The notes beneath the pieces are model-generated. The model saw only the letters and a program-made list of their open reading frames with translations. It was not told the DNA's origin and searched no databases. DNA of 64,000 nucleotides, taken from the NCBI RefSeq assembly GCF_002367995.1, contig NZ_AP018207.1:4525083-4589082 (forward strand), written 5' to 3'. The DNA is from Calothrix brevissima NIES-22 (GTDB lineage: Bacteria; Cyanobacteriota; Cyanobacteriia; Cyanobacteriales; Nostocaceae). The position numbers and the translations under genes are program-made. The first letter of the stretch is position 1; the number at the start of each line of letters is the position of its first letter. Below, in pieces: positions 48,816-64,000 of the stretch.

Positions 48816-49772
48816 TTAAGTACTGATAGAAGCATCCTCCTTCTTTTCTTCTAGAAGAGCTTCAATTTGATCTAAAAGACGATTAACTTTTTTTACTTTT
48901 TTCTCGTCATCCCAGATTTTGCTCTTGAGCAGTGATTTGTATATTTTGCCTACTCTTTCTTTGTTTTGCTGCTGAGGAGACTGCGGTTTGTTTTCTGATT
49001 GAGTTTGAATAATATCTCCCACCAACTCTTTTATTGCAGATAGCGAGAGATTTTCTTCAATAGCTTTTTTTAAAATATATTGCCGTTTTTCATCATTTTT
49101 GATGCGTGCAATTACTTGTGCTTTTGTGTATTCTATTTGACCATTTTTAAGTGTAGCTTGAATATCCAAAGGTAGTTTAAGTAAGGGAAGGCGATTGGAT
49201 ACAAACGACTCCCACGTTATCTTTCCTATCTGTGTAAATATTGTTTGTATAGCGAGTGCTTCTTCGCTAACCATAACGTTATGGTTAGAGTTACCCTTAC
49301 TTTCATTATTCATCTGATAAAGAAGAGAAACTACCATTTCTTGCTCTATTTCTAGTTCGTGAGTAAGTAGTTCTAAGATACCGATTGTTTCTTCCCAAGT
49401 ATTAAGGTCTTCCCTTTGGAGGTTTTCAACTAAGCGTAGTTTACGAGCTTTTTTGTCGTCGCACTCAATAATGACTACAGGGATTTCCTCAAATTTTGCA
49501 ATTTCACAAGCTTTGAGACGGCGTTCACCAGCGACCAGCTCGTACTTGTCATCCTGAATCTTTCTAACGACGATGGGTTCTAGTAACCCCACTTCCTTGA
49601 TGCTGTCAGCGAGTGATTTGAGTTTTACGGGATCAAAATAGCGACGGGGCTGACTTGGCGGAAGGATAATTTGGGATAAGGGTAAAGTGGAATCAGATAA
49701 AGATTTTTCTTCGTCATCTCCAAATAAATTATCCAGTCCAGTTAATTTTTCTAGTTCGCGTCTTTGGCTCAT
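48816..49772 (-). CDS. parB: ParB/Spo0J-family partition protein
   Basis: 318 aa. N-terminal CTPase domain: QIILPPSQPRRYFDPVKLKS, YELVAGERRLKACEIAKFEE (GERR box) and LRLVENLQREDLNTWEE. Central DNA-binding helices have FVSNRLPLLKLPLDIQATLK and IEYTKAQVIARI. A charged C-terminal dimerisation region follows. It overlaps parA by 4 bp. A perfect 22-bp palindrome lies inside the gene (49267-49288). With ParA it should segregate the replicon; the chromosomal ParAB is expected elsewhere. Confidence 0.92.
   Translation of the reverse strand: MSQRRELEKLTGLDNLFGDDEEKSLSDSTLPLSQIILPPSQPRRYFDPVKLKSLADSIKEVGLLEPIVVRKIQDDKYELVAGERRLKACEIAKFEEIPVVIIECDDKKARKLRLVENLQREDLNTWEETIGILELLTHELEIEQEMVVSLLYQMNNESKGNSNHNVMVSEEALAIQTIFTQIGKITWESFVSNRLPLLKLPLDIQATLKNGQIEYTKAQVIARIKNDEKRQYILKKAIEENLSLSAIKELVGDIIQTQSENKPQSPQQQNKERVGKIYKSLLKSKIWDDEKKVKKVNRLLDQIEALLEEKKEDASIST
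49267..49288. promoter_or_regulatory. Perfect 22-bp palindrome inside parB (candidate parS)
   Basis: CTAACCATAAC (49267-49277) is followed immediately by its exact reverse complement, within the ParB coding frame (residues near NHNVMVSEE). ParB centromeres are typically short palindromes close to parAB, so this is a candidate parS or autoregulatory site. It is unlike the chromosomal TGTTTCACGTGAAACA consensus. Confidence 0.45.
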
Positions 49773-50539
49773 AGTTTAGTAATATATTTTGTAATTTCTT
49801 CAAGTATCTTGACTGCGGGGTGGTTTTTCTTGTGGAGTGCAAGTGGTAGATGTGCTTGGGTTGCGTCAGGAAAAGCTGTTGATTTAGGAATGGGGGCAGT
49901 AACGTGTATCCGTCCTTCAACCTGTTGTTTAATTTCTTCCAGTATTCCTGTGTCTTGAAGATTACGATTATCGTATTTGGTTGGAATTATACAGGCAATT
50001 TGTAATTTCTGGTGTCCTCCTTTTTTGAGTCGGGCAATTGTTTCTAGCAGTTGGTTGGTGCCAAGATAGCACTTATATTGCGTTTCAACAGGAATAATAA
50101 CGTGTGAAGCAGCTACTAAGCTCATAATGCTTAGGATTCCTAGAGAAGGCGGACAATCAATCAAAATATAATCATACTGGTCAAGTACATTTGAGAGTGC
50201 AAACTTGAGTCGTTGGCGGTTGTCGATGGTCAAGTCATGAAAAATTTTTTGCTCCGTACCTGCCAATTGGATATTTGTTGGTACAAGGTGCATCCCGTGA
50301 ATAGGTTTTTCCCATATATACAGGGGAGTTTCTTCAGCGATCGCACCATAGATAGTTTGTTCCGTTTGCAGCTTGACTTCCCCTAATCCCATAAAAGCTG
50401 TTAGTGATGCTTGTGGGTCCATATCCACAAGCAGTACACGGTGTTTTTTAGCAAGGTGGTATCCAAGATTGTGTGTAATAGTCGTCTTAGCTGCACCACC
50501 TGACTGATTGAAAGTGGCAATTATTTTGGTTGATGACAT
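49769..50539 (-). CDS. parA: ParA-family partition ATPase
   Basis: 256 aa. Deviant Walker A IIATFNQSGGAAKTTITHNL (KGGXXKT-like, here GGAAKT), Walker A' VDMDPQASLTAFMG, Walker B IDCPPSLGILS. No N-terminal HTH, so this is a type Ib-like or chromosomal-like short ParA that does not itself bind the operator. Overlaps parB (ATGA at 49769-49772), showing coupled expression. It moves plasmid-type DNA by ATP-dependent gradient on the nucleoid. Confidence 0.94.
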   Translation of the reverse strand: MSSTKIIATFNQSGGAAKTTITHNLGYHLAKKHRVLLVDMDPQASLTAFMGLGEVKLQTEQTIYGAIAEETPLYIWEKPIHGMHLVPTNIQLAGTEQKIFHDLTIDNRQRLKFALSNVLDQYDYILIDCPPSLGILSIMSLVAASHVIIPVETQYKCYLGTNQLLETIARLKKGGHQKLQIACIIPTKYDNRNLQDTGILEEIKQQVEGRIHVTAPIPKSTAFPDATQAHLPLALHKKNHPAVKILEEITKYITKL

Positions 50540-50621
50540 ATATTAATGAAGCGATTTTGTGAACCCATGTCAGCGATTCTACCAAACAGTGGATTTTTAT
50601 TTTGTATTTTTGAAAAAAATA

Positions 50622-50661
50622 ACGCTAGTTCAAACCAGTAAACCTGTCTGGACTAGCATTA
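50622..50661 (-). terminator. Hairpin terminator after the SSB-like gene
   Basis: On the minus strand GCTAGT-CCAG arms pair with CTGG...ACTAGC (one side bulged), followed by GTTATTTTTTTC. Placed just after the stop of the 139-aa SSB-like gene. Confidence 0.65.
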
Positions 50662-50676
50662 TTCAGTTAGTTGGTT

Positions 50677-51096
50677 CTAAAATGGAGGTTCTTCGTCTAG
50701 GTCTTCATTTGTCGAAGTAACGTTATCTTCGAGTAGTTCCTTGGCAAAATCGGGAGTCTCAAGCGAGTGAGAGTTTTTGCTAACTTGGGTGAGTTCGTTA
50801 ATCGGTTGTGCTGAGATAAAGTTTCTAATTACGAATGTGGCAATCTTTTCTTTGTACTCACCCCTATTATCTACCACTAAATCAAGATATCCTTCTGCTG
50901 TACCATGTACGCCTTCCCCCTGTTCGTTGATGAGGACAGCAGGTGCGCCCTTGGAACGGAATGGTATCTCGTCAGTAACGACTCCTTCCTTGGAACGATA
51001 GTAGAATTCAGCAATCCCAAAAGCAATCAAGGAACCTTCTTTGTCGTGGGTTGTGTTCACTGATTTAAGATTAATAGTTGCAGTATTATGAATCAT
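50677..51096 (-). CDS. Diverged SSB-like protein with acidic C-terminal tip
   Basis: 139 aa. The first ~95 residues follow an OB-fold-like strand pattern (TATINLKSVNTTHDKEGSLI, EIPFRSKGAPAVLINEQGEG, KIATFVIRNFI). The last residues, after an acidic linker, are DLDEEPPF, very close to the SSB-Ct tip (DDDIPF) that recruits replication and repair proteins. The neighbouring canonical SSB lacks this tip. OB-fold assignment is inferred from pattern; it could be another ssDNA-binding fold. Preceded by a hairpin. Confidence 0.65.
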   Translation of the reverse strand: MIHNTATINLKSVNTTHDKEGSLIAFGIAEFYYRSKEGVVTDEIPFRSKGAPAVLINEQGEGVHGTAEGYLDLVVDNRGEYKEKIATFVIRNFISAQPINELTQVSKNSHSLETPDFAKELLEDNVTSTNEDLDEEPPF

Positions 51097-51129
51097 GGTC
51101 GTTTGGTTTGTAGATTGATTAGATGGTTG

Positions 51130-51159
51130 ATCGCCTATGATTTATACTGCATAGGCGAT
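51130..51159. terminator. Hairpin between ssb and the SSB-like gene
   Basis: A 10-bp perfect stem (ATCGCCTATG / CATAGGCGAT) with a 10-nt loop and AT-rich flanks. It separates two same-strand genes, so it likely reduces read-through. Confidence 0.6.
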
Positions 51160-51169
51160 TTGTAATTTT

Positions 51170-51553
51170 CTAGAAATTTGCGTTAGCTACAGCCTGTGTT
51201 TCGTTTGGTACAGAAGTAGATGTAGATTCTTCCTTACGGGGTGAACCTAATAATTCGATGGCGTTGATTGTGATTACAGGTTTTTGCCGCATAGTGCCAG
51301 AATTTTTATCAGCCCAACGATCAAATCCAAACTCACCAGTAATTGCAATCTGAGTCCCTTTACGAACGTAATTTCCAATCACTTCTGCTTGATTTCCCCA
51401 AGCGACTAAATCAAACCAAAGGGCTTGTTCACTTCTGTAGGGTGGTCTGACTGCAATAGAGATTGAAGCTTTAACTGCTCCCGACTCGAAAAATTTCAGG
51501 TCGGGTTCTTGTCCACATCTGCCAACTAGCATGACTTTGTTGATATAGTTCAT
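51170..51553 (-). CDS. ssb: Single-stranded DNA-binding protein
   Basis: 127 aa. Canonical OB-fold: MNYINKVMLVGRCGQEPDLK, ALWFDLVAWGNQAEVIGNYV, GTQIAITGEFGFDRWADKNS, ITINAIELLG. The protein ends PNETQAVANANF, without the acidic DDDIPF-type tip found in nearly all bacterial SSBs. Loss of the tip should prevent recruitment of partner proteins, unless the adjacent SSB-like protein supplies it. Length is shorter than host-type SSB. Sits in the replication module. Confidence 0.9.
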   Translation of the reverse strand: MNYINKVMLVGRCGQEPDLKFFESGAVKASISIAVRPPYRSEQALWFDLVAWGNQAEVIGNYVRKGTQIAITGEFGFDRWADKNSGTMRQKPVITINAIELLGSPRKEESTSTSVPNETQAVANANF

Positions 51554-51788
51554 AACGCGAGAATTGATATATTTCTTTTATTGCTGCGTCAGCATTAGTT
51601 CTTTTAGGATTTATCATTTTGACAACTTGTTTTATTTAAAACTCATCTTTTGCTTCATACTTATGAGTTATTTTTTATCCCTGTTTCTCATAACATTGCG
51701 GTTTTTACCAAGGAATGGCTAATTATCCTGTGCTATGGTGGGATCGCAAATGTCGTGGTATGTATCTAAAAATTATAAGTAATGACTT

Positions 51789-52964
51789 ATGCTTGAATAT
51801 CTTCTCCTAAAGCGAGTAAGTATTTGTAAGCTGATGCTCTTGGCTTTGATGTGGATACAGTTCGATGAAGACAGCCAAAATCAGCTAACTCCTGACTACT
51901 CTTCACCTTTGCAAGTAGAAAATCTTATGTGGTTAGGAGAAACATATGTTGGAGAAGAGGTTGAGCATTTTTGTGATGTTTCCAATACCGCTAGGATAGG
52001 CGTTTGGAGAGAAATTCTAGAACTGAAGTTAGTAGATTTAATTGCTGATTTACCAACTTGTTTGCACGATGCTTCATGGTTTGCTCTACTGGCAATTACT
52101 ATGATGTTGGTGGATAAAGAATTAGACGGGATTTGTGTACACCCACAAGATGAGTATTTTGCCCGGAGTCTTGCGCTTGAAAGTTTGGCAGATTTGAGTG
52201 ATTCTTACTTAGCCAAAGGACATCCTTATTTAGATTTTCCTTTATCATTAGAAGATGCTAAATCATTACTGCCAGTTAATAGAAAACAAGAGCTAAAAAT
52301 CGAGTTGAAGAAATTTATTATTGATACTTATGAAAATGATTTTGATGATGAAGCGCCAAATATTAGTGAGTTTTCATCCATCTACTTGCAAGATATTTTA
52401 AAAGAGTTTTTTGTTGAATCTGACTGGCAAGGTGATATCAATCAAGAAGCGGTTGTACAGCTTCAAGAAAAGTATGGTTCACAGTATTCAGAAGGTGCGT
52501 TCTCTCCTGAAACTAAGGAACACGAACGTTGGGGCAAAACGCTTGTTTTTCTTAAACAGTTTATAGGTCTGGATTCTAATTTTATCGAAAGCCAAAGCGA
52601 TTTGTTTCTTGATGAATCTCAAGCAGCTGATTTACCTGATTACTTCCGTATCAAGTCTCATTTAGAACGTTGGCAAGACCGAACAGTTGTCTTATCCCGG
52701 TTGGTTCATACTTTAGTTCATTTTTTACTGGTAGGACAAAATTATCATCCTAGTCATATACAAGATTTGATGGCTATTCCAGTTTCTTCACGGGCTATAT
52801 CCAGCCTACAAGCTTGTTTAGGTGTAGCTGCTTACAGAAGTGGTTATTACATGGCTGCTTCAAATATTCCCGAATCAGAAATTGGGCGGAACTGGTTGCT
52901 ACAAAAAGCTTTCCCTAACCTTCTTGAGTTTTATCAAACAGGTCGTTTGGATGGAAAACAATAA
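51789..52964 (+). CDS. Unknown protein of the replication module
   Basis: 391 aa. Not recognised. Largely alpha-helical, acidic, no signal peptide. A hydrophobic N-terminus (LEYLLLKRVSICKLMLLALM) could be a wrong start; MWIQFDEDSQNQLTPDYSSP is an alternative beginning. A helix-rich C-terminal half has LVHTLVHFLLVGQNYHPSHI and SLQACLGVAAYRSGYYMAAS. It is on the opposite strand to ssb and forms a plus-strand pair with the following lipoprotein gene (41 bp gap). Confidence 0.65.
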   Translation: MLEYLLLKRVSICKLMLLALMWIQFDEDSQNQLTPDYSSPLQVENLMWLGETYVGEEVEHFCDVSNTARIGVWREILELKLVDLIADLPTCLHDASWFALLAITMMLVDKELDGICVHPQDEYFARSLALESLADLSDSYLAKGHPYLDFPLSLEDAKSLLPVNRKQELKIELKKFIIDTYENDFDDEAPNISEFSSIYLQDILKEFFVESDWQGDINQEAVVQLQEKYGSQYSEGAFSPETKEHERWGKTLVFLKQFIGLDSNFIESQSDLFLDESQAADLPDYFRIKSHLERWQDRTVVLSRLVHTLVHFLLVGQNYHPSHIQDLMAIPVSSRAISSLQACLGVAAYRSGYYMAASNIPESEIGRNWLLQKAFPNLLEFYQTGRLDGKQ

Positions 52965-53005
52965 TTAATATTCTGCTATCGGCTAATAAAGACAAATTTA
53001 TATTT

Positions 53006-53704
53006 ATGAAAAAATATTTATTTATAGGATTATTATTCTTAGTGGTTGGATGTTCATCTCCAGAAAAAGAAAATAAAGTTTCAGCTATAGAATCGAATCC
53101 TTCACCTACGCCTTCATTATCTTCAGCTAATGTTAATAATGCTACGCCGTCGTTAAATTCAGAATTGTTACCTGATTTATCAAATAAAGAGAAGCTTGGA
53201 CAAGTTAGTGCAGAGAACGACTTAATTGACTCGTTTTATTTTGATGGTAATGGTGTAAAAGTGAGTTTGACTGTAACGGCTGATAAAGCTTGTTTTGTCT
53301 ACGTGCGGCGCAGTACTCCAGACCGAGTTGGTGAGGTTGAAATTGAGTCACTACAGCGCGAAAAGTTAGGTCTATGGCGTTCGTATAATACCCAGCGTCT
53401 TCTAACTCAACCTGCCGGCAATAGACTAAGCGTTTATTCATCAAGTGAGGAACTTTATTCTACTTATGAAAATCCTGCCATATCACCAGAAATTCTTGTA
53501 GCAGCAAAAGAATTGAAGGAGCGTGAAAAATCATTTAAATTACTTTTGCGTCAGGATTTAAAGGCAAGTGAATCAGCAAGACGAATTTATGTCAATCAGT
53601 GTCAGAAATTAGGCAATTTTTATTACAAGGAAGAACTTCCTCCTCTCACGGACAAAGAGAGGAAGGAATTTGAGAGGAGTGTTGAAAAAAGTACTAACAA
53701 TTAG
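53006..53704 (+). CDS. Putative lipoprotein of unknown function
   Basis: 232 aa. Signal with lipobox: KYLFIGLLFLVVGCSSPEKE (cleavage before Cys16). A Ser/Pro/Asn linker follows, then a domain with KACFVYVRRSTPDRVGEVEI and a C-terminal charged helix (PPLTDKERKEFERSVEKS). No family recognised. Converges on the 223-aa clamp-motif gene with a 3-bp gap. Confidence 0.65.
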   Translation: MKKYLFIGLLFLVVGCSSPEKENKVSAIESNPSPTPSLSSANVNNATPSLNSELLPDLSNKEKLGQVSAENDLIDSFYFDGNGVKVSLTVTADKACFVYVRRSTPDRVGEVEIESLQREKLGLWRSYNTQRLLTQPAGNRLSVYSSSEELYSTYENPAISPEILVAAKELKEREKSFKLLLRQDLKASESARRIYVNQCQKLGNFYYKEELPPLTDKERKEFERSVEKSTNN

Positions 53705-53707
53705 TTA

Positions 53708-54379
53708 TTAAAACAGTGACAATTGCTCCATCTTAGTATTACTTTCAGTTGAATTTGCTGTAACAGGGTGTTTGTTTTTATTTGAAGACTTTTTACCCCA
53801 TCCCTCTTTCGCCGCGTGTTTGACTACACGAGAACGAATATCAGCAGCCAGGGTTTCATAATCGGAGCGAATTTTGTTATACGAAACCGGAGTTGTACCA
53901 ATCTTCTCCCAGAGGTTTTCGTAGTTGAAATTCTTGAAAGGTCTGTGTCTGACAAGGGCATCATAACTTGCCCAGAGGTAAACATCTGTCCATTCGGATG
54001 ATAGCGGCACTTCAAAAGCAATTGGCATCATCAGTGCAACAACTTCGCTACTAGAGGCGAGTTTACCTACTTCTCCCTTGTCTATCTCTTGTAAGGCTGC
54101 ATCTAATCTATCAACTGCGATCGCGCGCCAAACCCAAGTGGGAATTGTCTGTTGCCAGCCGTTCTGCTGAGTGACAATTGGCCCGGCGATGTATTGAACA
54201 ATTTCACGGCTTGCTCCTGCTAGATCGAGTAGGCTGGCTGTTACAGTTTTGTTAATCCCTTGGCTGGTTAGTAACTGAAGTATCTTTCTAGTGCTAGGGT
54301 TTAATATTTCGCTAGCTTTTTGGTTTTTACTGTTGCGGATGGTTTCTTCGACATCGAATAAACTGTGCTGCTGGTTCAT
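53708..54379 (-). CDS. Unknown protein with candidate beta-clamp-binding motifs at both ends
   Basis: 223 aa. Not recognised. The C-terminus is KMEQLSLF, an exact QLSLF clamp-binding peptide of the QL(S/D)LF type. Near the N-terminus QQHSLFDVEE holds a second, QHSLF. Between them lies a helical domain (AVDRLDAALQEIDKGEVGKL, WTDVYLWASYDALVRHRPFK) and a basic stretch (HAAKEGWGKKSSNKNKH). It sits directly downstream of holB in the replisome cassette, so a clamp-associated regulator or adaptor is plausible. Confidence 0.7.
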   Translation of the reverse strand: MNQQHSLFDVEETIRNSKNQKASEILNPSTRKILQLLTSQGINKTVTASLLDLAGASREIVQYIAGPIVTQQNGWQQTIPTWVWRAIAVDRLDAALQEIDKGEVGKLASSSEVVALMMPIAFEVPLSSEWTDVYLWASYDALVRHRPFKNFNYENLWEKIGTTPVSYNKIRSDYETLAADIRSRVVKHAAKEGWGKKSSNKNKHPVTANSTESNTKMEQLSLF

Positions 54380-54400
54380 ATCTTTTATGTGTAAACAAAT

Positions 54401-54432
54401 ACTGCCAGCAAGAAATACTTCTAACTGGCAGT
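54401..54432. terminator. Hairpin between holB and the clamp-motif gene
   Basis: ACTGCCAG / CTGGCAGT arms, 16-nt loop, followed on the plus strand by GCTTTTTG. Confidence 0.5.
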
Positions 54433-54457
54433 GCTTTTTGATAATGAGTGGGTTTTG

Positions 54458-55342
54458 TTATGGCAGAAGTAGGCTATCCCAAACGCTTCTGGGCGTAACG
54501 TGATGCAGCAATTGCTTTCTTGCTTGGGTGAATTTAGCTAGTAGCTTAGTGCTTTTTAATTTCTGCCACCAGTTGTATTGCAGGTAAGTAAGCAACCATA
54601 ACTGCGTCTGGTGATTCCAGCTTGAGATGGAGTTACTTAAACTGAGAGCGTTGAGGATATCGTCAGGAGGTACTTCCAGTTGCTTTGTGATTTCTTGTGA
54701 GATGGAAGCTAACATTTTAATATTGGCGATCGCTTGACCAGGACTGCCGGAACTGATAGCTAGTATTTTTTCTGTTACCTCAATTTGTTGGTCTTTAAGC
54801 ACAGAAATAACCTCCTCATCAGTTAACCTTTGGAAAGGTATGATTTGACACCTACTCTTGATAGTGGGTAATAGCTTTTGAGGATAGGATGATATCAGAA
54901 TAAACGTTCCAGTTTTGGGTTCTTCCAGCGTCTTGAGAAGTTTGTTAGCAGCAGTAGGGTTGAGCATATCTGCTTCGTGGATAATCACAACCTTTTGCTT
55001 GCTCTCGACTGCACTAGTTGAGAGAAATTCAATTACCTCGCGCACCTGTTCTACTCGAATAGCAGGGACACTTTTCTGCTGGGAGGTGCTTTCGATATAG
55101 GTTGGTTTGATTTGTAAGATGTCTAGATGTTTAGATTCTCCTGCGAGCGCGGAGCGACTTCCTTTTGAGAGTATTGCATTTGCGAATACCAGAGCAGTTT
55201 TTCCTTTGCCCACTCCCTCAACTTCGCTGCTAAATAGGTATGCGGGAGCAATTTGATTACGTTCGATTGCTTCAGTTAGTAGAAGTTTGGCGGTATGCTG
55301 TCCGATGATTTCTGTAAATAAGTCGTTTTTCATATCGTGCAA
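54458..55342 (-). CDS. holB: DNA polymerase III clamp-loader subunit delta-prime
   Basis: 294 aa. AAA+ fold: FTEIIGQHTAKLLLTEAIER, a Walker-A-like VEGVGKGKTALVFANA, KVVIIHEADMLNPTAANKLL and LEEPKTGTFILISSYPQKLL, with the SRC motif in IKSRCQIIPF. A conventional delta-prime usually has a degenerate P-loop; here GVGKGKTA keeps the Lys-Thr, so it may bind ATP. It overlaps holA by 13 bp. Shorter than the chromosomal type. Confidence 0.9.
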   Translation of the reverse strand: MHDMKNDLFTEIIGQHTAKLLLTEAIERNQIAPAYLFSSEVEGVGKGKTALVFANAILSKGSRSALAGESKHLDILQIKPTYIESTSQQKSVPAIRVEQVREVIEFLSTSAVESKQKVVIIHEADMLNPTAANKLLKTLEEPKTGTFILISSYPQKLLPTIKSRCQIIPFQRLTDEEVISVLKDQQIEVTEKILAISSGSPGQAIANIKMLASISQEITKQLEVPPDDILNALSLSNSISSWNHQTQLWLLTYLQYNWWQKLKSTKLLAKFTQARKQLLHHVTPRSVWDSLLLP

Positions 55343-56292
55343 ATTTCGATAATTCGGCTAGTTAAATTGTTAGTGCCGCTTTTGATTTCCGTTTCGAGTT
55401 GTAAAAGTAAGGTAAGGCTGTTTTTCAGTTTCTTAACGCCTATAAACTTGATTTCATCTTTGAGGTAATATAATCTTTTAGGGTTTTTCAATTCGGCTAT
55501 TTCTGCAATCTTAGTATCAGATAATTTAGCTTCTAACCCAGCTTTAGTTATTAGCCAAGTGCGAAAAACTGACGTAAGAGTTGCTACTATTTTGAGTGGA
55601 TGTTCATTACTATCTAGTAGTTTATCCACCTGCGCTATTGCCAAGTTTGAATGATTCCTTAACATAGCCATAGTAAGCTTTTGGTAGTCAGTATTGTGAT
55701 TACTAACTAATTGTTTTATTTCCTCAAGGGAAATAATTTTTTCACTTGCATAGACAGCAAGTTTAGCAAATTCGCTATCGGCTCGTGCAGTGTTATTACC
55801 AATTGCTTCGACTAGATAGTCAGTCACATCCGGTGTAAGTTTAACTTGATGGATAGCTGCATACTTCCCTATCAAATTAACTATCCCCTTTTTATCCCAG
55901 CAAGGAACGAGAGGAAACTCTTCTTGTTGAGCATATTTTAGGATAGTTTTTACTACTGTTCTACGGGAATCTGGCTTTTTGTTACTAGTAATTAAAAGAA
56001 TGTTACTTGCAGGTATTCGAGAAAGTTGATTTTCAAGTCCTTGGTTATTATCCTCATTTGATAAACTTCCAATTAAATAATCGCTATCTGTATGAACAAT
56101 TTTGTTACCATCTCCAAAGGGTAAAGTCATAACCTCAGTAAAAACCTTGGCAGCAATATTTTTTTCATTTCCAGATAGCTTGATGTAGTTGAAAGCTTTC
56201 CATTCAGTATGAACATTTTGATTTACCAAATGGTTGATTTTGTGATTGAGCGAATAGGTATCTTCGCCGTAGTATAGGTATACTGGCATCAC
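55330..56292 (-). CDS. holA: DNA polymerase III clamp-loader subunit delta
   Basis: 320 aa. N-terminus PVYLYYGEDTYSLNHKINHL, then the clamp-opening region EVMTLPFGDGNKIVHTDSDY, and C-terminal helical collar LKIVATLTSVFRTWLITKAG and LSDTKIAEIAELKNPKRLYY. This is the wrench subunit that opens the beta ring. Length and motifs match delta. Its start lies 121 bp before a hairpin that ends the upstream gene. Confidence 0.88.
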   Translation of the reverse strand: MMPVYLYYGEDTYSLNHKINHLVNQNVHTEWKAFNYIKLSGNEKNIAAKVFTEVMTLPFGDGNKIVHTDSDYLIGSLSNEDNNQGLENQLSRIPASNILLITSNKKPDSRRTVVKTILKYAQQEEFPLVPCWDKKGIVNLIGKYAAIHQVKLTPDVTDYLVEAIGNNTARADSEFAKLAVYASEKIISLEEIKQLVSNHNTDYQKLTMAMLRNHSNLAIAQVDKLLDSNEHPLKIVATLTSVFRTWLITKAGLEAKLSDTKIAEIAELKNPKRLYYLKDEIKFIGVKKLKNSLTLLLQLETEIKSGTNNLTSRIIEICTI

Positions 56293-56414: not shown

Positions 56415-57197
56415 TTAAGTTTGTGCTGGTTGTACGAAATTTTGAATTGAGTCTTTATCAATATGGTTATCTACTGATTTATTACCTAAGTATTTGCGCC
56501 AAGAATCTAACTGTTGAAGATACTCTATTACTCCACTAGAACCAGCTACCTCGTATAGTGTAATAGCTGTTTCCCATTCCTTTGAGTCGGCTTGTTTCTC
56601 TGAGAGAATTTTGACTATAGCTTCGGGAAGTTTAGTGTCTTTACCAGTATCTAAATTTAGATGGGGTGTGTTTTCTAGTAATATTTCTTGTCCATATATA
56701 GTAACACCATCATCTTTTATACTTGTAGTATGAAGTTGAACACTAATCTCTGATAGAGGAAGAGTATATTGAAGAAATTTTTTAACTTTTTTGGTTTTAG
56801 TATTTCTCCTTTTTGATTTAATGATAACTGGGTTGTTTGGTTCTGCAACTTCGTAACATTGGGGGAGTTCTAGAGAGAGTTGACCTGTTAAGCACCATGA
56901 TGCACTTCGTTTTTCTGGTGGGGTGATGCGATAAGAAAACTCAGCTGTTTTCCTGGGGTCGCCAGACTTTCTTAGTTTGACCCACATGTTGTAGCTGATA
57001 ATTCCTTGGATGTAAGTTTTTGGGTCTAATATTACTGGGTTTGTGTTTTCCCACCACTCAATTTGAACTACGCGATCGCCATCTAATTCGTAGATAGTTC
57101 TAACTCTGGCATTAGGATGAGACGACAGGAATGAGTTTACCCAAGCCCTTTGCTTTTTATTAAGCCTGGGCTTGCGAGAAGAGGATTTATTTTTCAT
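56415..57197 (-). CDS. Unknown basic protein between holA and polB
   Basis: 260 aa. Not recognised. Very basic N-terminus (SSSRKPRLNKKQRAWVNSF), a Trp-rich beta region (YELDGDRVVQIEWWENTNPV), KPKSK-like linkers and a C-terminal helix. TGQLSLELPQ at ~105-112 contains QLSL followed by E, an imperfect clamp motif. Position between polB and holA suggests a DNA-binding replisome accessory. Monocistronic by its hairpins. Confidence 0.65.
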   Translation of the reverse strand: MKNKSSSRKPRLNKKQRAWVNSFLSSHPNARVRTIYELDGDRVVQIEWWENTNPVILDPKTYIQGIISYNMWVKLRKSGDPRKTAEFSYRITPPEKRSASWCLTGQLSLELPQCYEVAEPNNPVIIKSKRRNTKTKKVKKFLQYTLPLSEISVQLHTTSIKDDGVTIYGQEILLENTPHLNLDTGKDTKLPEAIVKILSEKQADSKEWETAITLYEVAGSSGVIEYLQQLDSWRKYLGNKSVDNHIDKDSIQNFVQPAQT

Positions 57198-57252: not shown

Positions 57253-57275
57253 TTGAGATTTACATAAAATCTCAA
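57253..57275 (-). terminator. Hairpin after the polB gene
   Basis: TTGAGATTT / AAATCTCAA, 9-bp stem with a 5-nt loop, ten bases past the polB stop. Confidence 0.65.
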
Positions 57276-57285
57276 CTTTGTTTCT

Positions 57286-59103
57286 TTAGAAAAGAGATAA
57301 CTGACGTTTGTTACTTTCTAGTGTTGTAGGAGCAGCTATTTTGAGAATTTCTTCTCGCCTTTTTTCGATAAGGTGAAGATAGTATTGACGTGAATAATTC
57401 TCATTACTACTGATATTGGTTATGCCGCTAATTCCGTAATAGTAAGTGACTACATCTCCAGGTTTTCCTAGTTTGAGGATTTCTTTTTCGCTCTCTTTAA
57501 TTTTGCGTGTGATTACAAGTTTTTCTTTTGGATATTCCCTTGATAAAATCTGGGATTTGATGTGTGCATAATAATCTTCTGCTGCTGATACATTTTGAAT
57601 TAGCAGGGTTAAATACTCAATAGAAAACTCTTTCTCCAGTTGAGAGCGATCGCGGTTGCGCCAGTTGCCTTTAGTGATAATTTTCCCGTCTGGAAGCCAT
57701 AAAAGGTAATTTTTGGTTCCCCGTTCGGGGATAAACATAGCATCGGCGATAAACTCTAGCTTGACAGTTATCCCTTTAGGCAATTGAGATTGAAGTAAAC
57801 TACGTACCTCTTCTGGGTTGGGATGTGTGAAAAACACTCCATCAGTGTCAACTTCCACAGGAGTACCACCGTGCCGAGTGATAATTTCAATCATGAGCTT
57901 GAGTACTTTTCGGCTGTAGGCTGTAACTAATGCAGCAGCCTCCATATCATTGAAGGCGAGTTCAGATGTGCCGAAGAATCCAAACTCGGAGTTAGCTAAA
58001 ACCTTGACGGATTCTCTTTTTTCCTTAGCAGCAATATCTCCAGCAGATGCAAGTTGTTCCAACCTAAATTTTTCATTCACCAAATATTGCAGAATACTTA
58101 GTCCAATACGTTCTGTATCTTTAATTGAGCAAATACCCTTGTCTAGCATTGCCCAAGGGTGCATTGAGCTAATATCTGCATATCCAACCCTTCTATACAG
58201 TCCAGGAATAGAGTAAGCCATCCCTCCCTGAAATTTGTACTTGCGATCGGGTTTTGGTTTATCACCTGGATAATGATGCTCAAATATTCGTTCCCATTTA
58301 GTACCATTACCAGCAAGTGTTAGCTGCTGGAGATTCATTTCCGGTACAATTAGTGCTTCGTAATAGTATGAGGGTACAAGTCTATTCGCAATTAACCGGG
58401 TGTCTTCGAGGTCGTAGACAAGATACTCTTTTAGGCGTTTCCATCCCTTACTGTTGGGGCCATCTTTCCAACAACCGAGGATTTCCTCATAGGAAAGAAC
58501 TAACCTAGCGTTCTGGCGCAGTCCCATGTCCAATACAGCCTTTTTGAGCGATCTGCCGTTAGTTAGCTTTTTGGCTATGAAATCCCACCTCAGAACACAT
58601 ATATAAATGTCTACGTGTTGGCTATTTCGGATGAACACCTCCTGAATTTTTAGTGGCTCACCCCGTACTTGGGCGGTACGAATAGTCCGAGATTTGGATG
58701 CAACTTGAAATGGGTGTTTTATACCGTGCAAGTTGCATCGAGTAATAATAAATGGAATATCAAATGCCATCCCGTTATATGTGAAAATTACATCTGGGTT
58801 TCTTTTACTGAGATGGTTGATAAATTTGGTCAGTATTTTAGCTTCTGAGATATCCATAAAAATAGTAGAATATCCCCTTGAATCCATACAACCAATAGCA
58901 TAAATACGGCTTTCAAATGGGTTTATTCCTGCTGTTTCGATATCAACAAATATTTGTGAAAGTTCCTGATACGGCTTGAGTTGTATTTTGGGCTGCCAAG
59001 GTTTTATTGGAGAGGGGTCTTTCCAATAAATGTTTAGTTTGTCTTCATCGACAAAGATTATCCCTCTAGATTTCTTCACATAATCTCTGTGGTTATAACT
59101 CAT
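57286..59103 (-). CDS. polB: Family-B DNA polymerase with beta-clamp-binding C-terminus
   Basis: 605 aa. Proofreading exonuclease motifs: Exo I FVDIETAG (D54, E56), Exo II YNGMAFD (N110, D115), Exo III YDLED (Y230, D234). Polymerase motifs: A = DISSMHP (D310), B = KVLANSEFGFFG (K367, N371), C = VDTDG (D419, D421). All catalytic residues are present. It is shorter than usual (E. coli Pol II is 783 aa). The last five residues are QLSLF, a beta-clamp-binding peptide. It shares a cassette with a clamp and clamp loader; no dnaE is present. Probably the element's replicative polymerase. Confidence 0.93.
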   Translation of the reverse strand: MSYNHRDYVKKSRGIIFVDEDKLNIYWKDPSPIKPWQPKIQLKPYQELSQIFVDIETAGINPFESRIYAIGCMDSRGYSTIFMDISEAKILTKFINHLSKRNPDVIFTYNGMAFDIPFIITRCNLHGIKHPFQVASKSRTIRTAQVRGEPLKIQEVFIRNSQHVDIYICVLRWDFIAKKLTNGRSLKKAVLDMGLRQNARLVLSYEEILGCWKDGPNSKGWKRLKEYLVYDLEDTRLIANRLVPSYYYEALIVPEMNLQQLTLAGNGTKWERIFEHHYPGDKPKPDRKYKFQGGMAYSIPGLYRRVGYADISSMHPWAMLDKGICSIKDTERIGLSILQYLVNEKFRLEQLASAGDIAAKEKRESVKVLANSEFGFFGTSELAFNDMEAAALVTAYSRKVLKLMIEIITRHGGTPVEVDTDGVFFTHPNPEEVRSLLQSQLPKGITVKLEFIADAMFIPERGTKNYLLWLPDGKIITKGNWRNRDRSQLEKEFSIEYLTLLIQNVSAAEDYYAHIKSQILSREYPKEKLVITRKIKESEKEILKLGKPGDVVTYYYGISGITNISSNENYSRQYYLHLIEKRREEILKIAAPTTLESNKRQLSLF

Positions 59104-59225
59104 TAATTAGAGATTTTCCTAATTCATGTTGATATTAATTTTTAACTATCAACTTAATTGCGTATGCTGCTGTGGTAGTAAATGTTAATTTATTTGGTTA
59201 TTTAATTAAATGAAGAAAGAAATAT

Positions 59226-59251
59226 AGGGTTATAACTATGGTTATAACCCT
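59226..59251 (-). terminator. Hairpin after dnaX
   Basis: A perfect 11-bp stem (AGGGTTATAAC / GTTATAACCCT) with a TATG loop and T-rich sequence beyond it on the minus strand (ATATTTCTTTCTTC), ten bases after the dnaX stop. Confidence 0.7.
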
Positions 59252-59259
59252 GTTGAAAG

Positions 59260-60549
59260 TTAAGCTTGTTGTAATTGTTTTTGTTGCAGCTTTTGGACAG
59301 CTTCTACCCAAGCAGGTGCTTTTTTACCATTAATAGGTGTCAGCTTTTGCCAGTGTTCTTGTAACTGGGCTTGTGTTAAGTGGGGTAACTGTTCCTTGCC
59401 CCAGTTAATCGCATCTTGAGCAGTTTTCCAATCTTTCCAGGGTTGTGATTGGTGACTACCCTTGTTGGTTGGCACTATCTCGATAAGTGTAGCTTCCAAC
59501 CAAAGATGTGCGTCTTCATCCCGCATGAGATTTTGGCGTGCCATTAAGATTGCGATCGCATTTCGGATCTGGTCGATATTCCACAACTGCGAGATACTTA
59601 CTAATTCCTCCCAGGTGTCCTCTTCTAGCTGTGTAAGATGTCTGCTATTGGGATTAGTTTTGCACACAAGTAAGTCTTTGAGGAAACTGACAAGACTTGT
59701 ATGGATGGCAGTTGGCTGTTTACCAGATTCAATCCAATCTTGAAGGATGCCTAAATTGCCCGTAATTTCTCCTTTGATGATATTTTCACAGACGGTGAGT
59801 AAATCGTATTCGGGAATAGTGCCTGATAGTTCCCAAACCCAGTTAGAGGTAATTTCCTCTTCACCTAGTAAGGTTAACTGGTCTAATAGTTTGAGTGAGT
59901 CGCGCAGATGTCCCTTGTTTGCTTTAGCTACGGCGGTAACTGCTGATGGTGCAATTTTGATACTTTCCTGGTGAGATATTTGTTCTAGGTAGCTTGCAAC
60001 TAGCGAGACAGGAACTTTCTTAAAGTCAAACTTTTGGCAACGGGAGACAATGGTTTCTGGAACTTTGTGTAACTCGGTTGTGCAGAAGATAAATACTACA
60101 TGACGGGGAGGGCTTTCAATGGTTTTGAGGAGTGCTTGCCACGATTGGCTACTTAGGGCATGACATTCATCAATAATGAATATTTTGAATCTACTTTCCA
60201 CTGGTGCAAATTGGGTAGTGGATATAAGCTCTCGGATCAGTTCTACTCCACTATTGCTTGCTGCATCCAGTTCGGTTACATCAACAGAAGAAGATGCCGT
60301 AATTCCCTTGCATGAATTGCATTCTCCACAGGGCTTGGTTGTTGGCTCATTGCTTGATTGACAGTTAAGAGATTTAGCAATGATGCGGGCGGTACTGGTT
60401 TTACCTGTACCTTTGGGGCCGCTAAATAGGTAAGCAGGTGCAATCTTTTGGAGAGCGATCGCATTTATAAGAGTGCGAACAATATGTTCTTGCCCAATGA
60501 CTTCACTAAGAGTCTGGGGACGGTATTTGAGATGTAGTGGTTGGTACAT
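59260..60549 (-). CDS. dnaX: DNA polymerase III clamp-loader subunit DnaX (gamma/tau-like)
   Basis: 429 aa. Walker A SGPKGTGKTSTARIIAKSLN (44-51 core), zinc-binding Cys at 63, 74, 77 and 80 (KPCGECNSCKG), Walker B/DEAH FIIDECHALSS, sensor 1 VFIFCTTELHKVPETIVSRC. It has the AAA+ core plus helical collar and little more, so it resembles gamma and lacks a long tau tail that in E. coli binds the Pol III alpha subunit. Upstream neighbour is dnaN. Confidence 0.94.
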   Translation of the reverse strand: MYQPLHLKYRPQTLSEVIGQEHIVRTLINAIALQKIAPAYLFSGPKGTGKTSTARIIAKSLNCQSSNEPTTKPCGECNSCKGITASSSVDVTELDAASNSGVELIRELISTTQFAPVESRFKIFIIDECHALSSQSWQALLKTIESPPRHVVFIFCTTELHKVPETIVSRCQKFDFKKVPVSLVASYLEQISHQESIKIAPSAVTAVAKANKGHLRDSLKLLDQLTLLGEEEITSNWVWELSGTIPEYDLLTVCENIIKGEITGNLGILQDWIESGKQPTAIHTSLVSFLKDLLVCKTNPNSRHLTQLEEDTWEELVSISQLWNIDQIRNAIAILMARQNLMRDEDAHLWLEATLIEIVPTNKGSHQSQPWKDWKTAQDAINWGKEQLPHLTQAQLQEHWQKLTPINGKKAPAWVEAVQKLQQKQLQQA

Positions 60550-60579
60550 AGTTTTGATGATTAAAAGTGTTTTATTTAC

Positions 60580-60608
60580 TCCTTACCAACTGCACTGATA
60601 AGGAGTTT
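60580..60608. terminator. Hairpin between dnaN and dnaX
   Basis: ACTCCTTA / TAAGGAGT arms with a 13-nt loop, followed on the plus strand by TTTAATTTTTT. It lies seven bases past the dnaN stop, so it should limit read-through into dnaX. Confidence 0.6.
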
Positions 60609-60614
60609 AATTTT

Positions 60615-61949
60615 TTAAGCAGTCGCGGCTTCTTTTTTCGTTCGTGACGAGCGTGAGGTTGACTTACCTTTAGTAGTATCTTTTGCTACTAAAGATGATA
60701 TTTCTGTTTCAGAATTTTCACTATCATTTGTTGCCTGCGCTATATCTGTTACTTCTTCAGTGCTAGGCTCAGGTTGAGTGCTGGCTTGTGTCTTTGTACT
60801 TTGGTTATTTACCTTTTCAAACCCCTGCTTAATTTCTACAGGCATTACCAGATACAGCTGATGGAGCAGTCCTCCCATCGGGCAGATAATAACTGGTTGC
60901 GTGGGTTTGTTACACCGCACCACGATTTCATCAGTACTGATGTGCTTCAATCCTTCGATAAGGTAGTCGATATTTAATCCAATACTGATGTTTTCTGAAT
61001 GATTAGTTGCTGGTTTCATCAGTACCGAGTCAACTGCATCCCCGATATCAGTAGCTTCGGTGTAAAGTGTTGCCTGTGTAGCTTCCAATTCCCAGAGAAT
61101 TTTGACAACCTTTTGCTTGCGTTCGGCTAGATAACTTACCCGCTTCAGTGCGCTCTCAAATCCCTTGCGTTCTAATGTAAATTCATACTCAAATGTTCTG
61201 GGAATCAAACTATTGATTTTGGGGTATTCTCCCTCTAAAAGTCGGGAAATGACCTTTGTATTAGGAAGACTAAACTCAATGGTTTTATTTGATAGAAGAA
61301 TATTGCAGACACTTGTATCGGCACTTTGAGAGAGAATTTTGTTTAACTCGCCAAGTGACTTACCTGGAACAGTAAAGTCAATTGGGTCAGAATATTCGCT
61401 ATCAAGTATTCCTGTGACTAATGCTAATTTGTGACCATTTGTACTAGCAGCTTGCCACTTATTTGTATCAATTTTGAAGTTGACACCAGTTAAAACTAAC
61501 TTTGTTTCGTCACCATTGGTGCAATAGAGTGTCCCTTCAAGTGCAGCTTGGAGTTTCTTGGCACTTAAATTTACTTCTATTGGATTTTCTCCTTTGGGAA
61601 GAGTTGGAAACTCGTCAGGTTTTCCGCCAATCAGACGGCATTTACCGCTATTGTGAGTAATTATGCAGGCTTGGTTTTCTACCTCTAAAGTAATTTCTCC
61701 TCTGACATTGTTAATAGTGTCAGTTAATAGTTTGGCTGGTAGTGCTACCTGACCTGAAGTTTCCACATTTGCGGTTGTTGTAGTATGAATTGTGAGGTTA
61801 AGGTTTGTTCCTGTTGCTGATACTATCCCATCTTCATTTGCTATCAGTAAGATATTTCCTAAAATTGGGTCAGTGGGCTTAGGACTGATTGCCAAATAAG
61901 CGGTTTCTAGAATTTCTGCGAGTTTAGATTGTTCAATGTTTAGTTTCAT
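60615..61949 (-). CDS. dnaN: DNA polymerase III beta sliding clamp
   Basis: 444 aa. N-terminal domain MKLNIEQSKLAEILETAYLA, the middle domain (KLQAALEGTLYCTNGDETKL, TGVNFKIDTNKWQAASTNGH) and the C-terminal domain ending QPVIICPMGGLLHQLYLVMP, where the hydrophobic peptide pocket and the PM-like motif lie. The clamp fold ends at ~residue 380. A ~60-residue Ser/Thr/Glu/Lys-rich tail follows, absent from normal DnaN. It encircles DNA to hold polymerases; it should bind the QLSLF peptides encoded nearby. Confidence 0.93.
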   Translation of the reverse strand: MKLNIEQSKLAEILETAYLAISPKPTDPILGNILLIANEDGIVSATGTNLNLTIHTTTTANVETSGQVALPAKLLTDTINNVRGEITLEVENQACIITHNSGKCRLIGGKPDEFPTLPKGENPIEVNLSAKKLQAALEGTLYCTNGDETKLVLTGVNFKIDTNKWQAASTNGHKLALVTGILDSEYSDPIDFTVPGKSLGELNKILSQSADTSVCNILLSNKTIEFSLPNTKVISRLLEGEYPKINSLIPRTFEYEFTLERKGFESALKRVSYLAERKQKVVKILWELEATQATLYTEATDIGDAVDSVLMKPATNHSENISIGLNIDYLIEGLKHISTDEIVVRCNKPTQPVIICPMGGLLHQLYLVMPVEIKQGFEKVNNQSTKTQASTQPEPSTEEVTDIAQATNDSENSETEISSLVAKDTTKGKSTSRSSRTKKEAATA

Positions 61950-62028: not shown

Positions 62029-63021
62029 TTAGTAGGGCAGTTCTTCCATCTCAGTACTGTATGCTGTATAAGCTTGACCTGCTGTACTAGGAGGAAGTGC
62101 TGCTACTGGCATATCATCTGCACCTACCAGGCGATTATGTTCTGCTACAACGGTTGATGTTTTACCGATGCGGTGAGAGAATTCGGGGTTTGCCTGCATT
62201 GTTGTTTGGATATCGATTTCTTTGCCTTCTGAGAAGAATTCGAGAAAATCGCTTCCATCGGGGTTTGGTGATTTATAGGAAGTGACAACTGCTACCCAAG
62301 ATTTATCCCTTTGGTTGACTGCTTCTTTAGGTTCAAGAGATGGCGTAAAGGTGGGTTGAAATACACCGAGGCGATGAAACTCTGCACGTTTTTCAGCAAC
62401 AGTTGTATCAGTAAATCGGGCGAATGCAACTTCTAGTTCGCGTTGGAACTGTTTATAAGCCTCGCCAAATTTTGATGATGCAACGCCTTTAATTGATAAG
62501 ATAATTGGTACTGAGTGCAGGTTATTATTATTTTCATCAACAAGTTGCAATAAATAAAACCGTCTCAATACTGCGGCATCTTTGCCAAGTGCTTGGTACA
62601 TTTCGTACCCATCAGGTGATTCGTACACTCCTACAATTTTGCCGTCATCGCGCTGTTCAATATATCTGGGAGAAACATCAAGAATGTGCATCCTGGGCGA
62701 TTGCAACAACACTCCCATTTCTGGCGTGCCACTAGAGAAGGTGTGCTTGTGTGTAGGTTCTTGTCCTTGCCAGTTAATTGCTGCTAAGTATTTATCTTTG
62801 ATAAACAACCCGACTTTTTCTGCTTCCATGTGGTTAATGACTTGGCAGATGCAGATATTACTAATCGGCGCATTGTACTCAGGATTTGCAAATTTAGAAA
62901 TAGCTGATTTACGCTTTTGTATGTTTGTACTATTCTGAACTCTTTGTTCAGGGGGTTCAGACTGGGATACTGCGCTTTCTTCACTAGCAGAATTAGTAGG
63001 CTTTGTTTGATTTCTTGCCAT
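62029..63021 (-). CDS. DUF5895-like protein with SSB-Ct-like tail
   Basis: 330 aa. Disordered N-terminus (SASEESAVSQSEPPEQRVQN), then a beta-rich domain (KFANPEYNAPISNICICQVI, PTHKHTFSSGTPEMGVLLQS, GYEMYQALGKDAAVLRRFYL) that I associate with the DUF5895 family seen on cyanobacterial plasmids. The end is STEMEELPY, acidic plus Pro-Tyr, reminiscent of the SSB tip. Function unknown; ssDNA-binding or recombination mediator is conjecture. Just upstream of dnaN. Confidence 0.6.
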   Translation of the reverse strand: MARNQTKPTNSASEESAVSQSEPPEQRVQNSTNIQKRKSAISKFANPEYNAPISNICICQVINHMEAEKVGLFIKDKYLAAINWQGQEPTHKHTFSSGTPEMGVLLQSPRMHILDVSPRYIEQRDDGKIVGVYESPDGYEMYQALGKDAAVLRRFYLLQLVDENNNNLHSVPIILSIKGVASSKFGEAYKQFQRELEVAFARFTDTTVAEKRAEFHRLGVFQPTFTPSLEPKEAVNQRDKSWVAVVTSYKSPNPDGSDFLEFFSEGKEIDIQTTMQANPEFSHRIGKTSTVVAEHNRLVGADDMPVAALPPSTAGQAYTAYSTEMEELPY

Positions 63022-63132
63022 AATTTTAATTAATGGAAATCAATATTTAATGCGTAAAGCAAAAAGTCGTTATAAAAAATAAAAGTCGTCTGTTATTAAG
63101 ACGACTTGAAAGATTGATTGATACTTAGTTAT

Positions 63133-63420
63133 TTAGATAAACTTTTCATCACACTCTCCCCTTAAGTCTGTAAAGCTGTCAATGCAAGTATCTCCCTGAA
63201 TAATTTCAGTTTTAGTATTTATAAGTGTCTGGTATATTTGCTGAAGACTAATGATGATTTGTCTAAGAACAGATGTGTTTTCAGTTGTGAAAGTCAGTGA
63301 CACAGATGCCATGCTTGAATTATGAATTGCGACTGTTTGTTCTTCAGGAGATCCATAACTGGTTATTTGGCTGTCTTTACCAGGAATAAATCTATAAGAA
63401 GCAATAGTTTCAATTGCCAT
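63133..63420 (-). CDS. Small unknown protein
   Basis: 95 aa, MAIETIASYRFIPGKDSQIT at the start, no signal peptide or membrane segment. Mixed alpha/beta by composition (VLRQIIISLQQIYQTLINTK). Not recognised. It follows the 72-aa gene by 2 bp, and codon use is like its neighbours. Coding status likely because of tight packing. Confidence 0.5.
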   Translation of the reverse strand: MAIETIASYRFIPGKDSQITSYGSPEEQTVAIHNSSMASVSLTFTTENTSVLRQIIISLQQIYQTLINTKTEIIQGDTCIDSFTDLRGECDEKFI

Positions 63421-63422
63421 AT

Positions 63423-63641
63423 TTATCTCCTTGTTCGTTGGGGTTTAATTTCAAGCATTTTATTACTAAGTTTGGTGATATTACTGACCTTCCAACCAGC
63501 AAGCTTGCACTTATTAAGTGCTACTTCTAACTCTTGCTGTGTAAGGATTTTGTATCTCATATATTGTTCCCATATAGGGAAGATATAAGTGACATATTTA
63601 GTTTTATCAATTTGGCAGTATGCCATGCGTTTGTAGTACAC
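63423..63641 (-). CDS. Small unknown protein
   Basis: 72 aa; a second ATG begins MAYCQIDKTKYVTYIFPIWE. Tyrosine-rich N-terminus and a KLAGWKVSNITKLSNKMLEI tail. Its start touches the stop of the upstream methyltransferase frame (shared base at 63641), suggesting coupling. Not recognised. Confidence 0.45.
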   Translation of the reverse strand: MYYKRMAYCQIDKTKYVTYIFPIWEQYMRYKILTQQELEVALNKCKLAGWKVSNITKLSNKMLEIKPQRTRR

Positions 63642-64000
63642 TATGGTTTAATGAGTTTAATGATTCTAGTAGCTACGTTTGTAGGGTTATTTGAACTCAA
63701 GAAGGCATCTTTATCTACCATTTCTACATAGCTATTATTGGCTTGTAGCCAGCCTTTGAAGGTTTTGTACTTACGATTAAAGAAAACTGATTCAGGTATA
63801 ACTGAAACTAATACGCCACCCGTTACAAGTAACTTCCAAGCCTGGTAGATATGTTGGACAAGTTCACAAAATGGAGGATTCATGATACAGGCATTGTATA
63901 AATGACTGGGGTTAAACTCCAGAAAGTTTTTCCCTACGAGATTAAATCCTTTGAGTTTTAGAATTTGTCGTAAATCGTAATTAATCTCAACCACCTCTAG
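63641..64000 (-). CDS. SAM-dependent N6-adenine methyltransferase-like protein (partial)
   Basis: At least 119 codons; the frame is open at the right edge, so the N-terminus, including SAM motif I, is missing. The catalytic IV motif is seen as CIMNPPFCELVQHIYQAWKL (NPPF), followed by GGVLVSVIPESVFFNRKYKT. NPPF fits DNA N6-adenine or RNA/protein methyltransferases. The C-terminus is short. A DNA methylase of the replicon is likely, though not provable here. Confidence 0.7.
   Translation of the reverse strand, partial: LEVVEINYDLRQILKLKGFNLVGKNFLEFNPSHLYNACIMNPPFCELVQHIYQAWKLLVTGGVLVSVIPESVFFNRKYKTFKGWLQANNSYVEMVDKDAFLSSNNPTNVATRIIKLIKP

Follow-up and report, generated by a model that had tools for sequence, protein, structure and literature searches.

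The window analysed here, a stretch of 64,000 nucleotides, comes from contig NZ_AP018207.1 (C1) of Calothrix brevissima NIES-22 (C1:4525083-4589082), and from position 48,816 onwards it encodes a family-B DNA polymerase (PolB) together with a bacterial sliding clamp, the subunits of a clamp loader, a single-stranded DNA-binding protein (SSB) and partition proteins. Plasmids are usually taken to borrow the replicase of their host. Our analysis suggests that this module is probably the private replisome, with an exchangeable polymerase, of a family of cyanobacterial plasmids of ~180-390 kb. If this is true, a family of large cyanobacterial plasmids supplies clamp, loader and primase itself, along with a polymerase other than Pol III, and its relatives exchange family-B and family-A polymerases on a common clamp and loader chassis. 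Culturable strains would then allow direct tests of how replicases are exchanged, how specific the clamps are and how mixed replisomes evolve.

A conserved set of replication genes

The genes of the module lie on the minus strand. The clamp gene dnaN (60615..61949; TIGR00663, 3.7e-75) is followed by dnaX (59260..60549, 429 aa; TIGR02397, 3.5e-131), by polB (57286..59103, 605 aa with exonuclease and polymerase parts; PF03104, 3.9e-12), by holA for the clamp-loader delta subunit (55330..56292; TIGR01128, 2.2e-53) and by holB for delta-prime (54458..55342; NF005638, 3.3e-104). The same strand carries an SSB gene (51170..51553; PF00436, 5.7e-22; TIGR00621, 1.2e-25) and the genes of a ParA-type partition ATPase (49769..50539; PF13614, 2e-43) and a ParB-type partition protein (48816..49772; PF02195, 1.4e-25; TIGR00180, 6.4e-33). 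A preliminary description, made from the letters of this DNA alone, had named a beta clamp, DnaX, delta, delta-prime and ParAB within 48,816-64,000, and the Pfam and NCBIfam matches bear it out, placing these genes at 48,816-61,949. It had also counted two SSB-type proteins. The one at 51170-51553 stands, but the other, a conserved 139-aa protein with an acidic EEPPF tail (50677..51096, minus strand), has no Pfam match and no profile match to the SSB alignment; its structural model is poor (mean predicted local distance difference test score, pLDDT, 44) and it is SSB-like only in the acidic tail.

Plasmids from Nostocales, Chroococcidiopsidales and Chroococcales share the gene order dnaN-dnaX-polB-holA-holB, their proteins being 30-55% identical. 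Among 21 cyanobacterial loci compared, holA and holB were found in all 21, and dnaN and dnaX in 20, the exception (L040) being a locus that starts within polB. The ratio of nonsynonymous to synonymous substitution rates (dN/dS) ranged from 0.04 to 0.29 in 10 comparisons covering six genes, which indicates that the module genes are under purifying selection. Over the plasmid collection, where co-occurrence was counted for DnaN and HolA (HolB was counted in the 21 loci), PolB was found in 27 records, 18 cyanobacterial and 9 of Deinococcus (24-28% identity), and both DnaN and HolA are present in 18/18 of the cyanobacterial ones.

The module continues past the window. A Prim-Pol+PriCT_2 primase (69579-70577 in window numbering, minus strand; Prim-Pol 2.4e-24, PriCT_2 6.5e-24) and a DEAD/DEAH helicase with an MZB domain (71745-74465, minus strand) sit 5.6-10.5 kb beyond its edge, upstream and on the same strand as the other genes. 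The earlier statement that helicase, primase and initiator are lacking therefore holds for the window, but not for the module as far as primase and helicase are concerned.

The polymerase and its predicted clamp-binding peptide

PolB occurs once in the NIES-22 genome. The exonuclease model matches it with 46.5 bits against a cut-off of 23, whereas the polymerase model PF00136 reaches 22.3 bits and just misses its own cut-off of 23, which is why a whole-genome search with PF00136 came back empty. The residues D54/E56, N110/D115, Y227/D231, D310/P316, K367/N371/G375, D419/T420/D421 and K464/Y466 are invariant in all nine rows of our PolB alignment (A1), and we take them for the exonuclease and polymerase motifs. 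The predicted structure has an exonuclease plus polymerase fold, its C-terminal QLSLF tail being modelled at low confidence, so that the earlier assignment to family B, with both sets of motifs, was correct. The relatives of the protein include those of seven Nostoc, Anabaena and Dolichospermum phage records (37.6-40.3% identity) and of ten Salinibacter records (25-27%); passages of Kazlauskas et al. (2020, PMC7544198) place the Nostoc-phage and Salinibacter-phage enzymes in group G3. A Glu two residues before DTD, found in 7/9 rows of the alignment, is only a candidate for the motif-C Glu of that group.

The C-terminus of PolB carries a peptide of the clamp-binding type. Passages of PMC12309361 give QL[S/D]LF as the clamp-binding consensus and state that PolC of Bacillus subtilis has QLSLF as its C-terminal motif. 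QLSLF or QLTLF lies at the PolB C-terminus, or at most two residues from it, in 22/22 cyanobacterial loci (the 21 compared and L211), with QLTLF in L037 and two residues after the motif in L044. It persists although the residues that immediately precede it vary and the identity to the window PolB goes down to 41%. Further PolB loci have QLSLF (L113, L114), QLSIF (L115) or QLTLF (L116), and E. coli Pol II ends in QLGLF. PolB C-termini were read in 10 of the 18 cyanobacterial plasmid records.

Chance can be rejected as the origin of the peptide. In 350 mechanically called open reading frames (ORFs) of at least 100 aa over 376 kb (107,368 residues), QL[SDT]LF occurs three times, always at a C-terminus and always in the module: in PolB, in o223 and in o160. 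These three strict matches stand against 0.039 C-terminal matches expected by chance, even with a looser pattern. The gene of o223 lies at 53708..54379 on the minus strand and that of o160, the neighbour of the primase gene, at 69094-69576 on the same strand beyond the window edge. The o160 protein ends in QLSLF or QLTLF in 5/5 loci where the scan met it, and o223 ends in QLSLF in 16/17 loci where it was found. The latter has a second peptide of this type, QHSLF, near its N-terminus in the window, and QQ(H/Q)SLF in 4/4 rows shown; with QHSLF/QQSLF near the start and QLSLF at the end, o223 may occupy both sites of the clamp dimer.

The PolBs of Nostoc phage N1 and Deinococcus deserti have no such motif at the C-terminus, the latter having an internal QPGLF. 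The peptide does not, however, mark only elements with a clamp of their own, an idea that we rejected: some viral-contig PolBs also carry it, with no DnaN in the stretches read, and the motif is thus not confined to own-clamp elements.

The plasmid DnaN, for its part, keeps the residues taken for those of the clamp pocket, which speaks for docking of such a peptide. Taken together, the C-terminal QLSLF, the 18/18 linkage to DnaN and HolA and the separate lineages of clamp and DnaX argue for a PolB tethered to its own bacterial clamp, which at the level of sequence is well supported.

Lineages of the clamp and clamp loader

In the DnaN tree, eight plasmid proteins group together (support 90/91), next to cyanobacterial host DnaN and separate from the Nostocaceae host group, with long-branch warnings for L043 and L044. 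Likewise, eight plasmid DnaX split from 16 host DnaX (98/93) in a tree made from the first 400 residues of 24 of the 39 rows. The plasmid proteins also differ in build. The window DnaN has an additional C-terminal tail of 73 aa, Lys/Arg-rich at its end; the tails of the six plasmid DnaN measured are 57-101 residues long with 6-7 Lys/Arg in the last 20, whereas four residues stand at this position in the host protein and two in that of E. coli. Three DnaN from HolA plasmids without PolB have no such tail. Plasmid DnaX, with 429 aa against 667 aa for the host protein, retains the clamp-loader core, and most of the C-terminal tau-type region is missing in the alignment.

The host carries its own dnaN, dnaX, holB and dnaE. 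Its genome has two DnaN genes and four PF13177 genes, and it is the sole genome of 39 with four PF13177 matches. Pol III alpha (PF07733) is represented by a single gene, at C1:2.71 Mb, ~1.9 Mb from PolB, which agrees with the earlier remark that no alpha subunit lies nearby; no DnaE or PolC alpha match was found in the ORFs of the element itself, p7601, pN25 or pANACY02.

A probable exchange of the polymerase

Not all plasmids with this clamp loader have a PolB. Plasmid pMIC7113.01 of Allocoleopsis PCC 7113 carries HolA, HolB, DnaN and SSB genes and a family-A exonuclease and polymerase (PF00476, 2.1e-82; PF01612, 1.1e-34). Among the matches listed, which for family A comprise 45 of 142 records (thresholds 35% identity and 91% coverage) and which limit all counts of this section, at least 23 plasmid records hold a relative of this enzyme at 35% identity or more. 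The 41 HolA plasmid records, which include none of the nine Deinococcus PolB records, divide into 18 with PolB, 13 with family A, none with both and 10 with neither, one of these ten being a Bacillus plasmid.

Two strains, Aulosira laxa NIES-50 and Anabaena cylindrica PCC 7122, each have one HolA plasmid of either polymerase type, so that a single cell would there run three clamp-loader sets at once. In Nostoc carneum NIES-2107 a plasmid with PolB coexists with one of the family-A type, and this second plasmid gave no HolA match.

The polymerase gene also varies within the PolB plasmids, jointly with dnaX. At L037 the two stand at 84 and 76% identity, against 50-53% for dnaN, holA and holB; at L048 they are 73 and 68% identical, against 85-90% for their neighbours. 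polB and dnaX thus seem, from these identities, to have been swapped as a pair.

Chromosomal setting

The preliminary description treated the element as a replicon of its own. In NIES-22 (9.26 Mb in nine contigs, C1 measuring 8.53 Mb) this does not hold, and a free plasmid is rejected: the block lies inside C1, between two copies of an insertion sequence (IS). The left copy (35815..37267, plus strand, 1,453 bp) encodes a 446-aa transposase; the right copy (209022-210474 in window numbering, outside the window) is in direct order and 100% identical to it. Between them the block spans 37268-209021, well past the window. ATATAA is common to the outer flanks of the two copies and is not found at the inner ones. 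The joined chromosomal flanks align unbroken in the congeners G389 (76%) and G391 (75%), the two continuous matches in a search of 18 other genomes that otherwise gave half or unrelated matches. The identical direct IS copies, the target repeat confined to the outer flanks and the empty site in congeners indicate that this region is a plasmid of conjugative type which the IS has joined to the chromosome. We take the genes at the fusion site to be ybeY and prfB.

The nearest plasmid is plasmid2 of Nostoc linckia NIES-25, compared over the 376 kb around PolB. About 108 kb of the 172-kb fused element match it at 98.3-100% and ~22 kb at 94-97%; the part at 148.4-189.4 kb is mostly without a match. 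Conversely, the 152.1-189.1 kb segment of plasmid2, whose annotated genes (PCC 7601 serving as guide) include relaxase, ParM-type and giant ones, has no match above 400 bp within the 376 kb read.

Proposed mechanism and alternative explanations

In the mechanism that we propose, the Prim-Pol enzyme would prime plasmid DNA and the plasmid HolA-DnaX-HolB loader would place the plasmid DnaN on the primed site; PolB, whose flexible tail would dock in the pocket of the clamp by the C-terminal QLSLF, would then copy the plasmid processively and with proofreading. The proteins o223 and o160 would ride the same clamp with their own C-terminal QLSLF. Clamp and loader would form a chassis that in sister plasmids carries a polymerase of family A, and initiation and strand unwinding would probably be carried out by the host or by unrecognised plasmid proteins.

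Could PolB instead be an accessory polymerase for repair or restart, acting on the clamp like E. coli DNA polymerase II while the host Pol III copies the plasmid? We think this unlikely. The E. coli enzyme is chromosomal and accessory and works on a shared clamp, whereas the plasmid polB is grouped with genes for a clamp, a loader and a primase of its own, none of which a repair polymerase would need. Moreover PolB and family A replace each other on HolA plasmids and never meet on one record (among the matches listed), which argues for one main polymerase per plasmid. It also seems quite unlikely to us that the module is a transfer kit, which would make the second strand in the conjugation recipient and so free the plasmid from the replisome of its new host. 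The named plasmids close to that of the window are typed conjugative (MOBP, MPF_T), as are 15 of the 27 PolB plasmid records, and the module includes a primase and an SSB; but it is also found on records that are merely mobilizable (Calothrix PCC 7716, MOBV), it adjoins par genes and not tra genes, and it has stayed intact in the fused element, of which the 376 kb read contain no relaxase segment.

The use of the host clamp by PolB, with the plasmid clamp and loader serving another purpose such as decoy or regulation, would agree with the likeness of the pockets and with the viral-contig PolBs, both discussed below. The strict co-occurrence and near-adjacency of dnaN, dnaX and polB and the long tail of all six plasmid DnaN measured, which host and E. 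coli clamps do not have, render it very unlikely. A prophage or satellite origin, suggested by the 38-40% identity of PolB to the Nostoc phage enzymes and by p7601 genes annotated as terminase-like, lysozyme and Gp157-like, was considered and rejected as highly improbable, since the module stands on circular plasmid records with relaxase, VirB10-type and par genes, and since the part of phage N1 that was read has no clamp or loader genes. Least of all do we believe that these are redundant host genes, recently copied and without function, even though the host has dnaN, dnaX, holB and dnaE: the trees and the low dN/dS contradict it, and gene order is kept at 30-55% identity between plasmids of different orders. 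The preliminary description had asked whether the clamp-loader genes might be simple host copies with an intact dnaE close by; the DnaN and DnaX lineages are separate and dnaE is remote.

Several observations nevertheless weigh against a private replisome. In plasmid C of Trichormus variabilis ATCC 29413 (L211:6001-8727), a copy of ISAva7 interrupts polB near residue 261 and so separates its exonuclease part from its polymerase part; each piece is annotated as a gene, the second keeps QLSLF, and record NZ_CP047244 has the same two-piece pattern. Since these plasmids persist, PolB may there be dispensable, replaced or functional as two pieces. The clamp pocket of the plasmid DnaN is nearly identical to that of the host DnaN, on which PolB might therefore work instead. 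Of the 51 viral-contig loci, two have the tails QLSLFS or QLSLFV (L062, L066), and five further ones (L092, L097-L099, L109) have QxxLF-type tails, all with no DnaN in the stretches read. In Nostoc phage N1, whose PolB is 39% identical, the 41.6 kb read out of 65 kb contain neither clamp nor loader genes, so that a PolB of this group can work without a clamp set. The ten of 41 HolA records with neither polymerase count on the same side, and the probability of 6.5e-5 that PolB and family A exclude each other by chance assumes independent records, which they are not (both figures again among the matches listed). Finally, no replicative hexameric helicase or initiator was met among the genes scanned, a scan that covered part of the genes of the element. 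The split polB, the indistinct clamp pocket and this last result are the reasons why we call the private replisome probable and no more. They also bear on the earlier view of a self-contained replisome with its own PolB on its own clamp: the second half has the sequence support given above, whereas "self-contained" would also call for a hexameric helicase and an initiator, neither of which was met among the genes scanned.

With regard to initiation, a conserved plasmid protein of 733 aa (L021:3183-5384), primase-like by eye and with no Pfam match, is a candidate initiator. A giant plasmid gene of 2,581 aa, considered for the same role, gave weak matches only. A search for iterons or strong repeats around the module and around the second par region gave nothing clear, and the text of the CyRepA paper (PMC10899382) contains none of the searched terms.

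Comparison with known systems

A PolB on cyanobacterial plasmids was known before. According to passages of Chenard et al. (2016, PMC4916379), it is found on plasmids of Cyanothece PCC 7424, Nostoc PCC 7120 and A. variabilis, and the same PolB occurs in phages A-1 and N-1. The likeness to group G3 and to these phages lies in the polymerase, 38-40% identical to the Nostoc-phage enzymes; an adjacent clamp, loader and primase or a C-terminal clamp motif are not mentioned in the portions covered of this paper and of Kazlauskas et al. (2020), the word "clamp" occurring 0 times in PMC4916379. In the open-licence literature we found no account of clamp, loader and primase together with PolB, and no description of the whole module.

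The module resembles the phage T4-type replisome in that one element brings a family-B polymerase, a clamp and a loader. The T4 clamp and loader are of the PCNA/RFC type (passages of PMC7544198 and PMC7824862), whereas the plasmid module has the bacterial DnaN and DnaX/HolA/HolB. With the bacterial Pol III holoenzyme it shares the clamp and loader subunits, which are clear members of their families; it differs in that the element has no DnaE and its DnaX lacks most of the tau-type C-terminal part.

Other genes of the element

Between the window edge and o160 lie three minus-strand genes for ThiF (E1-like; 65731-66588 in window numbering), Prok-JAB (deconjugase-like; 66576-67172) and Prok-E2_D (E2-like; 67175-67918). 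They match models of the PRTRC cassette (ParB-related, ThiF-related), but all under the curated cut-offs (ThiF, TIGR03736, 130.8 against 144.75 bits; E2, TIGR03737, 65.8 against 131.45; JAB, TIGR03735, 47.4 against 101.8), and the module has no match to the PRTRC C, D, E or F models. The presence of these genes in the block and the Lys/Arg-rich end of the plasmid DnaN tail led us to consider that a ubiquitin-like conjugation acts on this clamp and controls the replisome, as a bacterial counterpart of PCNA ubiquitination that would select among PolB, o223 and o160; we hold this joint reading to be a long shot.

Three further minus-strand genes lie in the module. The gene of o260 (56415..57197), between polB and holA, is present in 19/21 cyanobacterial loci and has no Pfam or NCBIfam match at the limits applied. 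That of a DUF5895 protein (62029..63021; PF19247, 5.1e-30) adjoins dnaN. The third, a weakly methyltransferase-like gene of 351 aa (PF05175, 0.0017, below the cut-off), starts beyond the edge (63641..64000, continuing to 64696).

Beside parB, positions 45155-47966 hold cargo genes for a metal-binding protein and an ABC transporter (MntC and ABC transporter in the NIES-25 annotation). Two neighbouring transposase-like ORFs of 122 and 134 aa lie at 43390-44207, and 43369-44279 is not in NIES-25 plasmid2. Elsewhere in the fused plasmid (L020:12879-16621) there are M23-peptidase-like and lysozyme-like genes, named after the PCC 7601 annotation, and an FtsK-type gene (PF01580, 1e-20). The four HIP1 sites named in the preliminary description were all recovered among the seven found in 48816-64000 (at 50337, 54117, 54726, 57072, 57646, 59552 and 60455), or 0.46 per kb; the chromosomal flank 1-35800 has 0.84 per kb.

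In 386 cyanobacterial genomes PolB gave 59 matches, full-length in five (NIES-22 included), fragments only in nine and weak in the remaining 45, mostly to the exonuclease part. The full-length copy of G306 lies on a contig of more than 5.6 Mb and is therefore probably chromosomal. The polB fragments, some with stops (L117-L124 and L130, in G022, G328, G103, G048, G155, G245, G064, G149 and G072), look like signs of repeated capture and decay.

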